A stretch of DNA of 34,205 nucleotides, taken from assembly GCA_947593355.1 (NCBI GenBank), contig CANQDO010000014.1:1-34205 (forward strand), given 5' to 3'. This document shows, piece by piece, positions 13,799-17,267 of the stretch (within the stretch, counting starts at the first letter, position 1; each line of letters opens with the position of its first letter). The notes beneath the pieces are model-generated. The model searched no databases and was not told where the DNA came from. It saw only the letters and a list, made by a program, of their open reading frames with translations. The stretch comes from an uncultured Clostridia bacterium. Lineage in GTDB: Bacteria > Bacillota > Clostridia > TANB77 > CAG-508. The position numbers and the translations under genes are program-made.

Positions 13799-15061
13799 AT
13801 GGGAAAAGAAGTATTTGAGAAGTACGAGTCTAACATAAGAGGATATTGTAGAAAATGGCCTGTAGAACTTGTTTCAGCTAAGGGTTCTATATATAAAGAT
13901 GTAAATGGGAATGAATATTTAGACTTTTTTGATGGAGCAGGAGCATTAAATTATGGACATAATCCTGAATATATAAAGGCAAAATTAATAGAGTATTTAC
14001 AAAACGATGGAATTGTTCATTCTTTAGATATGTATGCACTACCTAAAGAAAAATTTATAGATTACTTTGAAAATAAAATTTTAAAACCACGTAATTTAGA
14101 GTATAAAATAGCATTTGCAGGTCCAACAGGGACTAATGCAGTAGAATTAGCATTAAAGCTTGCTAGAAAAGTAAAAGGAAAACCAGATATTTGGGCTTTT
14201 ACAGGAGCTTTTCATGGAATGACTTTGGGTGCACTATCTCTTACAACAGAGCAAGCTGCAAGGGATGCAGCTGGAGTGCCACTTAATAATACAGTACATA
14301 TACCAGCGCCATATTCTATGGGCGGAAATTTTGATACAATAGCATATATGAAAGAAATATTAGAAGATGATCACTCAGGTTATGGTAAGCCATCAGCAAT
14401 AATAATAGAAACTGTTCAGCAAGAAGGCGGAATTTATGTATTTAGTGAACAATTTTTACAAGATTTAAGAGCTTTTTGTGACGAAAATGATATTTTATTA
14501 ATTTGCGATGAAATACAAATTGGGTGTTCAAGAAGTGGAACTTTCTTCTCATTTGAAAGAGCAAATATAGTACCAGATATTGTATGTATGTCAAAGTCAA
14601 TTGGTGGCTATGGTTTGCCACTTGCAATAACATTATTTAAAAAAGATTTAGATGTATTTAAACCAGGTGAGCATAATGGAACATTTAGAGGTTGTCAACT
14701 TTCAATGGTGTCAGCACTTGCAGCATTAGAAATGACAGTTAATGAAGATATACCAAATAAAGTAAAGCAAAAAGAAAAAATGGTAAAAGAATATTTAGAA
14801 AGAGAAATAAAGCCATTATTGTCAGATAACATGGAAATTAGAGGTATAGGTCTTACTTGGGGTATAGATTTTAAAGATGGAAAGATGGCAAGAGAAGTTT
14901 TAGATGAATGTTTTAAGAAAAATTTAATCATTGAACTTGCAGGAAGAGAAGATTCTGTGTTAAAAATAATGCCATCACTTGTTATTGCAGATGAATTGCT
15001 ATTAAAAGGCTTAGAAATTATAAAAAAAGCTACAATGAAGGTTCTAAAAAATAGAAAATAA
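13799..15061 (+). CDS. ectB: EctB-type diaminobutyrate--2-oxoglutarate aminotransferase
   Basis: 420 aa class III PLP aminotransferase. EctB hallmarks are CRKWPVELVSAKG, DFFDGAGALNYGHNP, the DGIVHSLDMYA segment and FAGPTGTNAVELALK. The PLP aspartate is Asp237 in CDEIQIG and the PLP lysine is Lys266 in MSKSIGGYG. The expected reaction is L-aspartate semialdehyde plus glutamate to L-2,4-diaminobutyrate. EctA and EctC (ectoine synthesis) are absent; instead the divergent MurT/GatD pair follows 61 bp downstream on the same strand. A supply of diaminobutyrate to cell-wall or peptide chemistry is therefore possible but unproven. A related omega-aminotransferase specificity cannot be excluded. Confidence 0.8.
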   Translation: MGKEVFEKYESNIRGYCRKWPVELVSAKGSIYKDVNGNEYLDFFDGAGALNYGHNPEYIKAKLIEYLQNDGIVHSLDMYALPKEKFIDYFENKILKPRNLEYKIAFAGPTGTNAVELALKLARKVKGKPDIWAFTGAFHGMTLGALSLTTEQAARDAAGVPLNNTVHIPAPYSMGGNFDTIAYMKEILEDDHSGYGKPSAIIIETVQQEGGIYVFSEQFLQDLRAFCDENDILLICDEIQIGCSRSGTFFSFERANIVPDIVCMSKSIGGYGLPLAITLFKKDLDVFKPGEHNGTFRGCQLSMVSALAALEMTVNEDIPNKVKQKEKMVKEYLEREIKPLLSDNMEIRGIGLTWGIDFKDGKMAREVLDECFKKNLIIELAGREDSVLKIMPSLVIADELLLKGLEIIKKATMKVLKNRK

Positions 15062-15122
15062 TACAAGGAAAAAATAGATTAATAAATAAAAAATTATTAA
15101 GATAAAAGGGAGTAGTACCAAT

Positions 15123-16505
15123 ATGAAAAAAACATTTAAGTTTTATATTGCACTATGGGTAGCAAAAATAGTTGCAGGTTTATTAAAATTATTAAGAAGA
15201 AATGCATCTTTTTTACCAGGAAAAATTGCACTTAAAATTTGCCCAGATTTTATGGGAATAATAGAAAAGCCAGAGAAAATAATTGCAATTACAGGAACAA
15301 ATGGAAAAACTACTGTAAGCAATATGATAATAGATGCATTAGAAAAATGTGGCTATACTACATTAAATAATAGAATTGGCTCAAATGTTAATTCAGGAAT
15401 TGCAAGTAGCTTATTAAATGGGGCAACTTTTATGGGAAAAACTAAAAAGCAAATTGCAGTACTTGAAGTAGACGAAAGAAGTTCAAAGAAAATCTATCCA
15501 TATTTGAAACCTAATTATGTATTGTGTACAAATATTTTTAGAGATTCAATAAAAAGAAATGCTCATACAGATTTTATTATAGATATAATAAATTCAGCTA
15601 TTCCAAAAGAATCAAAATTAATATTAAATGCAGATGACTTAATTTGTTGTAGCATAGGTCCAGAAAATAAAGAAAAAGTATATTTTGGAATAGATAAGTT
15701 AGATACAGATGTAGAAGAAACAACTAATATATTAAGGGATATTAGGACATGCCCTGTATGTAATACTAAATTGAAATATGAATATATGCGTTATCATCAT
15801 ATAGGAAAAGCATATTGTCCAAATTGTTCTTTTAAATCACCTGAAAGTGATTATTTAGGAACAAATATAGATTTTGAAAACAAAACAATAGATATAAAAA
15901 CAAAAAGCGGTACTAATAAATATAAATTAATAAGTGATAATATTATAAACATATATAACATGGTAGCTGCAATAGCAGCCCTTACAGAATTGGGAATAGA
16001 AACGCAAAAAATAATAGAGATATTTAATGATTTTAAAATAGTAGAAACAAGGTATTCAGAAGAAAAAGTAAATGATAAAAAAGTAGTAATGTATTTAGCA
16101 AAAGGTCAAAATGCAATAGCATGTTCAAGAACTTTTGACTACATAAAGCATGCTGAAGGCAAAAAAGCTGTAATGCTTAATTTAGATGACTTTTTTGATG
16201 TTAAAGATTCTACAGAAAATATATCATGGATATATGACACAGATTATGAACTACTAAATGATGATAGCATAGAGCAAATTATTGTTGGAGGAGCTAGAGC
16301 AAAGGATCATTGTTTAAGACTATTAATTGCAGGAGTACCAAAAGAAAGAATAAAATGTGAAAGATATGAAGTTGATGCAGTTAATCATTTAGACTTAGAA
16401 AAAGTAGATAATATTTTTATATTATATGATGTATATACTGTACCTACTGCAGAAAAGGTAAAGGCAAAAATTAAAGAAAAAATTATGCAAAATGTAGAAG
16501 AATAA
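15123..16505 (+). CDS. murT: Divergent MurT-like Mur ligase (lipid II isoglutaminyl synthase subunit family)
   Basis: 460 aa. The N-terminal helix and Mur ligase middle domain contain the P-loop GTNGKTT (residues 58-64). A four-Cys zinc ribbon (Cys210, Cys213, Cys232, Cys235) typical of MurT is intact, and a DUF1727-like C-terminal domain follows. MurT uses ATP to activate the D-Glu alpha-carboxyl of lipid II, and GatD supplies ammonia. Usual C-terminal signatures are altered: the expected KNP-type segment reads YLAKGQNAIAC, and the DxSW stretch, thought to hold the triad Asp, reads ENISW (Asn366). The GatD partner downstream is inactive-looking, so the reaction may differ from canonical amidation. 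Confidence 0.8.
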   Translation: MKKTFKFYIALWVAKIVAGLLKLLRRNASFLPGKIALKICPDFMGIIEKPEKIIAITGTNGKTTVSNMIIDALEKCGYTTLNNRIGSNVNSGIASSLLNGATFMGKTKKQIAVLEVDERSSKKIYPYLKPNYVLCTNIFRDSIKRNAHTDFIIDIINSAIPKESKLILNADDLICCSIGPENKEKVYFGIDKLDTDVEETTNILRDIRTCPVCNTKLKYEYMRYHHIGKAYCPNCSFKSPESDYLGTNIDFENKTIDIKTKSGTNKYKLISDNIINIYNMVAAIAALTELGIETQKIIEIFNDFKIVETRYSEEKVNDKKVVMYLAKGQNAIACSRTFDYIKHAEGKKAVMLNLDDFFDVKDSTENISWIYDTDYELLNDDSIEQIIVGGARAKDHCLRLLIAGVPKERIKCERYEVDAVNHLDLEKVDNIFILYDVYTVPTAEKVKAKIKEKIMQNVEE

Positions 16506-16550
16506 ATGTAAAAGTTTCGTTAAGCAAAAAGAGAAAGGAATGTAGTTTAA

Positions 16551-17267
16551 ATGAAAATAGAAGTGTTATTTCCAGAGTCTTGTAATTTATATGGTGACAT
16601 ACAAAACATGGTATATTTAAAAAAATGTATGCCTGAAGCAGAATTTATTGAAACTGCAATAGATGAGGAACCTAAATTTGTAAAAGAAGATATGAACTTA
16701 ATATATTTAGGCTCAATGAAAGAAAGAACTCAAGAAAAAGTTATAAATAAATTATTACCATATAAACAAAGAATAGAAGAATTAATTAACAATAATACTG
16801 TATTTTTATTTACAGGCAATAGTTTTGAAATTTTAGGAAAATATATAGAAAATGAAGATGGAAGTAAAATAGATGCATTAGGAATTTTCGATATATATGC
16901 TAAAAGAGATATGATGCACAGATATAATGGTATGGTATTAGGAAAAATTGATGATATGGAAATAGTAGGTTTCAAATCATTATTTAGTTTTTCTTATGGT
17001 AATAATGAAAATGAATACTTTTTAAAGTTACAAAAAGGAATTGGGTTAAATAAAGAAACTAAATTAGAAGGTATAAGAAGAAATAACTTTATAGGAACAT
17101 ACTTAACAGGTCCATTTTTAATAATCAATCCATTATTTACAAAATATTTAATGGAATTAATGGGAGTAGAAAATCCAAAATTGGAATTTGAGGAAACTAT
17201 TATGGAGGCTTATGAAAATAGGCTTGCAGAATTTAAAAGTAAAAGAGTAAGTGAGCAAGGTCATTAA
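16551..17267 (+). CDS. gatD: GatD-like glutamine amidotransferase subunit lacking catalytic Cys and His
   Basis: 238 aa, co-linear with GatD over its length: start with NLYGDIQN, GIFDIYA after the nucleophile region, IVGF, GYGNN and the C-terminal GTYLTGP. From memory, S. aureus GatD has Cys94 in ICGGYQFLG and His189 in GTYLHGP. Here the first reads TGNSFEILG (Gly89 at the Cys site) and the second GTYLTGP (Thr186 at the His site). The only cysteines, Cys11 and Cys26, lie elsewhere. The reading frame is intact and the gene sits directly after murT, so this looks like a maintained pseudo-glutaminase rather than decay. Confidence 0.85.
   Translation: MKIEVLFPESCNLYGDIQNMVYLKKCMPEAEFIETAIDEEPKFVKEDMNLIYLGSMKERTQEKVINKLLPYKQRIEELINNNTVFLFTGNSFEILGKYIENEDGSKIDALGIFDIYAKRDMMHRYNGMVLGKIDDMEIVGFKSLFSFSYGNNENEYFLKLQKGIGLNKETKLEGIRRNNFIGTYLTGPFLIINPLFTKYLMELMGVENPKLEFEETIMEAYENRLAEFKSKRVSEQGH

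Follow-up and report, generated by a model that had tools for sequence, protein, structure and literature searches.

A MurT-like ligase paired with a GatD that has lost its glutaminase triad probably acts, in an uncultured Clostridia bacterium and its relatives, as an amino-acid ligase that starts the cross-bridge of type B peptidoglycan, with GatD serving as a scaffold. The pair lies in a stretch of 34,205 nucleotides (the window; contig CANQDO010000014.1, numbered C14 in the genome G000, which comprises 1.52 Mb in 76 contigs and is 96% complete), where three consecutive open reading frames (ORFs) on the + strand encode an EctB-type aminotransferase, MurT and GatD, separated by gaps of 61 and 45 bp (Table 1). 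The original prediction for this DNA placed an EctB-type gene, expected to make L-2,4-diaminobutyrate, just upstream of a MurT whose ammonia donor looks dead, and proposed that MurT couples diaminobutyrate or another amine to its substrate instead of amidating D-Glu. The ORFs and their profile and domain matches bear out the gene order. The interpretation as a whole is partly supported: the idea of an amine or amino-acid ligase has gained more support than was then known, whereas the partner chosen for it, EctB, is the exception.

The window MurT contains the MurT_C and Mur_ligase_M domains and its GatD the Pfam domain GATase_3; the genome has one MurT_C match and one GatD match. Among proteins of known structure, both find their best sequence matches in the staphylococcal and streptococcal MurT/GatD complexes (for GatD, the Staphylococcus aureus protein), and an AlphaFold model of the window GatD (predicted local distance difference test score, pLDDT, 92.5) gave the GatD proteins of S. 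aureus, Streptococcus pyogenes and Streptococcus pneumoniae as the top Foldseek hits. Both nevertheless score far under the NCBIfam equivalog cut-offs for isoglutaminyl synthase, with 209 bits against 800 for MurT and 75 bits against 400-450 for GatD.

The ammonia-making half of the pair appears to be dead in all three parts of its triad. The position of the catalytic Cys94 of S. aureus GatD is Gly89 in the window protein and that of His189 is Thr186, as the original prediction had noted, and the third triad residue, Asp349 of MurT, is Asn366. In S. aureus, MurT Asp349 completes the catalytic triad and the D349N exchange severely cuts amidation (PMC6113224). We refer to window-type pairs as T1, to a wider triad-less group as T2 and to triad-keeping pairs as intact. 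In our alignments the residue at MurT position 349 is Asp in 45/45 intact pairs, in 0/22 T1 and in 0/90 T2 pairs. The GatD proteins of T1 and T2 have Gly for Cys94 (Ser in two tandem paralogues) and Leu, Ile, Val, Thr or Met for His189. Every T1 and T2 homologue examined is without the same residues, so the loss of the triad is not due to chance. The ATP loop of MurT, the Mg ligand E108, the MurT_C domain and the four zinc-ribbon cysteines are all kept, and the ligase half therefore looks alive. Changes of GatD catalytic residues were also seen outside T1 and T2 (Gly/His in L059 and L245, Ala/Ser in L126, Ser/His in L232, Cys/Asp in L250); the partner MurTs of L059, L126 and L250, the three that were aligned, retain D349.

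A GatD without glutaminase activity need not be useless to its ligase. The C94G exchange in S. aureus GatD abolishes the use of glutamine and leaves NH3-dependent MurT activity at pH 8.5 (PMC3266927 Table 2), and GatD is still needed for this activity (PMC3266927). A dead GatD can thus act as the scaffold of a working MurT.

The T1 form is present in 25 of 117 genomes of the family to which the window genome belongs, and its members are more than 50% identical except for broken copies. T2, recognised by the motifs GTTG and FTNxLGPVxVKNPW, ranges over the same family and other families of the class; named carriers are Eubacterium callanderi, E. pyruvativorans, Anaerofustis stercorihominis, Emergencia timonensis, Mogibacterium kristiansenii and a Collinsella isolate, and T2 also occurs in several metagenome-assembled genomes of Propionibacteriaceae, Oscillospiraceae and Lachnospiraceae. 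A MurT tree, read as unrooted, separates T1 plus T2 from all intact pairs with support of 100/97, and T1 and T2 each with 100/100, which is compatible with a single loss of the triad. The two groups share an Asn at S. aureus position 139 and an Arg at position 112 (22/22 T1, 89/90 T2) that is mostly Ala in intact MurT; Arg112 is a candidate carboxylate binder. The genome G410 carries one intact and one T2 pair together, and T2 is therefore not simply a replacement amidase. Elsewhere, two murT-gatD units stand in tandem in L166 (GatD match at 8001-8729 plus neighbours) and L169, where the second GatD has Ser/Val for Cys/His, and L187 combines a T1 with a T2 pair; such tandem pseudo pairs possibly serve a two-residue bridge.

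In type B walls, which have been catalogued since the 1970s, the cross-links run through the alpha-carboxyl of D-Glu. Since this is the same group that MurT/GatD amidates, we propose that the triad-less pair ligates an amino acid there. In the complex of MurT with pseudo-GatD, the latter would have a structural or regulatory role only; MurT would attach an amino acid, not ammonia, to the D-Glu alpha-carboxyl, and with this ligation the assembly of a type B cross-bridge, from position 2 to position 4, would begin. For the T2 branch, D-ornithine would be the most likely amino acid. In the T1 branch the amino acid is not fixed; the few genomes that encode EctB could plausibly use diaminobutyrate made by this enzyme. 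What the sequences provide is the triad loss, the intact ATP site, the well-supported T1 plus T2 split, the gene neighbours and the co-occurrence described below; from these we infer the chemistry of the pair, its acceptor and amine and, for these uncultured bacteria, the type B cross-link. We would give about even chances to a broader version, in which the ligase adding the first type B bridge residue evolved once from lipid II amidotransferase by loss of the glutaminase, and in which the supply enzyme encoded next to the pair (ornithine racemase, an alanine-racemase-like protein or EctB) determines the amino acid. For Eubacterium, the recorded peptidoglycan type is B2alpha (PMC11382707), and in Microbacteriaceae type B2 with D-Orn and diaminobutyrate-containing walls are documented (PMC10757982). 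A pair of the T2 type, as distinct from the T1 type of the window, is found in a genus with a recorded type B wall, namely in Eubacterium callanderi (L205).

The gene neighbours of T2 point to D-ornithine. In several gene orders the pair adjoins a relative of the ornithine racemase Orr (NF040742, 300-458 bits, under the cut-off of 480). This racemase lies within 4 kb of the pair in 30/95 T2 loci and in 0/46 intact loci, and an arginase-like gene (TIGR01229, 209.7 against 227.6 bits) accompanies it in 7 of these 30 T2 loci. In the genomes drawn from the class, 14/15 T2 genomes have the racemase anywhere in the genome, compared with 46/377 others (p = 1e-11, with genomes treated as independent). 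Within the family it is present in 9/16 T2 genomes, two of which (G007, G041) were assigned to T2 by score only, and in 0/101 others, and all nine copies adjoin gatD. The T2 pair and the racemase occur together in all five named Eubacterium, Anaerofustis, Emergencia and Mogibacterium species listed above. Upstream of murT, five loci of small racemase-less T2 genomes have an alanine-racemase-like gene. Given the varied arrangements and phyla, a functional tie of T2 to D-ornithine is the simplest reading, despite shared ancestry.

The window EctB scores 570.5 bits against PRK09264, over the cut-off of 438, and 540.6 bits against the ectoine EctB model TIGR02407, just under the cut-off of 552.2; its best PDB matches are 6rl5 and 9s1q. 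No member of the ectA or ectC families was found among the scanned window proteins, in line with the original prediction; the search for them did not extend to the rest of the genome. EctB occurs in only 4/117 family genomes (G000, G071, G090 and G003), and we therefore rejected it as a general partner of the pair. The exact ectB-murT-gatD order was seen only in the window genome, whereas in G071 and G090, which belong to the same genus, ectB lies downstream of gatD, and in G003 it lies within an mraZ-rsmH-...-ftsI/spoVD-murE-mraY-murG cluster, beside ftsI/spoVD-murE. These are three independent placements, every one beside peptidoglycan genes, and no ectAC accompanies the copies in G071, G090 or G003. 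The T1 type of pseudo-GatD is present in 25 genomes, most of them without ectB, and all four EctB genomes are T1 (4/25 versus 0/92, p = 0.0017). The genes between aspS and murT in T1, among them a small coiled-coil-like protein (c6) and an mnmA-like gene (c14), yielded no amine supplier.

Diaminobutyrate, the amine originally favoured, has become a weaker candidate and stays plausible where EctB is present. Of the four EctB genomes, the window genome alone has a whole asd gene; G003 has pieces of it, and G071 and G090 have none, which leaves the supply of aspartate semialdehyde unproven in these three. Diaminobutyrate could be the amine added by MurT, a replacement for diaminopimelate, both, or neither.

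Several findings weigh against a D-Glu-directed amino-acid ligase. A search of the window genome and the other T1 genomes for the ornithine racemase found none, and among 47 T2 genomes reached through their loci, most of them picked since no racemase adjoined the pair, 32 have the gene and 15 are without it at E 1e-20. Because some T2 and all T1 genomes are without the racemase, the amine would have to differ or be imported. The racemase is not restricted to T2, as the 46 other genomes that carry it show, and the p-values and counts are inflated because T2 is one clade. In addition, MurE in the window family keeps the motif DNPR, usually tied to meso-diaminopimelate, even in the absence of dapB, and the stem may therefore be ordinary.

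For EctB, a role elsewhere in the wall has to be considered, in which it makes diaminobutyrate for stem residue 3 in place of diaminopimelate and its adjacency to murT-gatD reflects a shared cell-wall role only. This is possible but doubtful. It would agree with the absence of dapB from all four EctB genomes (Fisher p = 0.02), with the position of ectB in G003 and with the state of the window genome, which keeps asd-dapA (L291:8496-10448) and has an unrelated gene 84 bp past dapA, where relatives have dapB; an assembly gap is unlikely here, as asd-dapA and the next gene lie on one contig. The lysine/diaminopimelate pathway looks broken in this genome, but dapF persists elsewhere in it, the MurE of all four EctB genomes has DNPR, a motif linked to the second diaminopimelate carboxylate, and three of the four have the fragmented or missing asd. 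As a clue to residue 3, the specificity of MurE proved uninformative: DNPR occurs in almost every family genome read, whether dapB is there or not, the scan having found no motif in several MurE loci, G197 among them. The MurE of the Eubacterium-like G458 has DNPA. Second, lower-scoring MurE-like ligases were seen in G003 (G003:C2:163599-164990), G109, G053, G031, G111 and G426. Alternatively, EctB might use another substrate, such as gamma-aminobutyrate or an imported diamino acid, and owe its position to coincidence in small, shuffled genomes. Its rarity, the lack of asd in two of its genomes and the 12 bits by which it misses the TIGR02407 cut-off would fit this explanation, which we regard as somewhat unlikely in view of the three separate placements beside peptidoglycan genes and the confinement of EctB to T1 genomes.

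The pair itself might still amidate D-Glu with free diffusing ammonia. The activity of the S. aureus C94G complex at pH 8.5 is a precedent for such a reaction, but at pH 7.5 the same complex has no activity with NH3 or NH4Cl (PMC3266927 Table 2), and amidation would leave Arg112, the ornithine-racemase neighbours and the double pairs of G410 unexplained, making this reading improbable. It is even harder to believe that the T1 module is functionless and decaying. Broken T1 copies do exist (G106, G035, G021, G080 and G098), yet more than 20 copies have intact frames, the ATP site is fully kept, and 17 aligned copies are 52-66% identical to that of the window, with 43 invariant columns.

The open-access literature yielded no description of this triad-less MurT/GatD variant, which is weak evidence of novelty, and in the literature searched no enzyme is named for the addition of the first bridge residue to the D-Glu alpha-carboxyl of type B. 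If the proposed ligase activity is real, an amidotransferase was turned into an amino-acid ligase by losing its glutaminase, and uncultured gut bacteria with type B walls could be recognised by the pair. The gene pair would be directly testable in culturable acetogens (Eubacterium limosum/callanderi, Acetobacterium). The annotation would also be corrected, since lipid II isoglutaminyl synthase is the name that such pairs probably receive and that should not be used for them.

Table 1 Coordinates of the three genes and their key residues in the window
Feature	Position	Strand	Remark
EctB-type class III aminotransferase (diaminobutyrate--2-oxoglutarate transaminase family)	13799..15061	+	420 aa
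Pyridoxal phosphate (PLP) lysine K266 of EctB	14594-14596	+	motif-matched
MurT-like Mur ligase	15123..16505	+	460 aa; ATP loop and zinc-ribbon cysteines intact
ATP-binding loop GTNGKT of MurT	15294..15311	+	
MurT Arg119 (S. aureus position 112)	15477..15479	+	4 residues past Mg ligand E108
MurT Asn366, replacing triad Asp349	16218..16220	+	
Pseudo-GatD	16551..17267	+	238 aa; GatD fold without glutaminase triad
GatD Gly89, replacing catalytic Cys94	16815..16817	+	
GatD Thr186, replacing catalytic His189	17106..17108	+	

A search of positions 12400-17600 for a terminator-like site found none. Directly upstream of ectB, the window encodes a leucine-rich repeat variant (LRV) protein (13059-13613) that has no relative in the other compared loci, and a YezG-like immunity protein domain (PF04634; 6444-7205) lies just past a run of glycolysis genes.

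The closest known system is the MurT/GatD lipid II isoglutaminyl synthase of S. aureus, S. pneumoniae and S. pyogenes (PDB 6gs2, 6fqb, 9sq9), which has the same gene order, folds, ATP site and zinc ribbon and presumably the same target, the D-Glu alpha-carboxyl. The window pair differs from it in lacking the C94-H189-D349 triad, in the newly conserved Arg112 and Asn139 and in falling under the NCBIfam cut-offs. In its proposed chemistry, a direct attack of an amino acid on an acyl phosphate, the window ligase would resemble MurC-F and the archaeal pMur ligases, but it scores 95 bits against pMurC and 201-209 against MurT models and has MurT_C and a GatD partner. The window EctB belongs to the same sequence family (PRK09264) as EctB of the ectoine pathway, from which it is set apart by its place beside peptidoglycan genes, by the absence of ectA and ectC among the window proteins scanned and by a score below the ectoine-specific cut-off. 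For the wall, a parallel would be the type B (B2) peptidoglycan recorded for Eubacterium and Microbacteriaceae, with D-ornithine documented in B2 walls and diaminobutyrate in walls of Microbacteriaceae; Eubacterium carries the T2 pair together with ornithine racemase.

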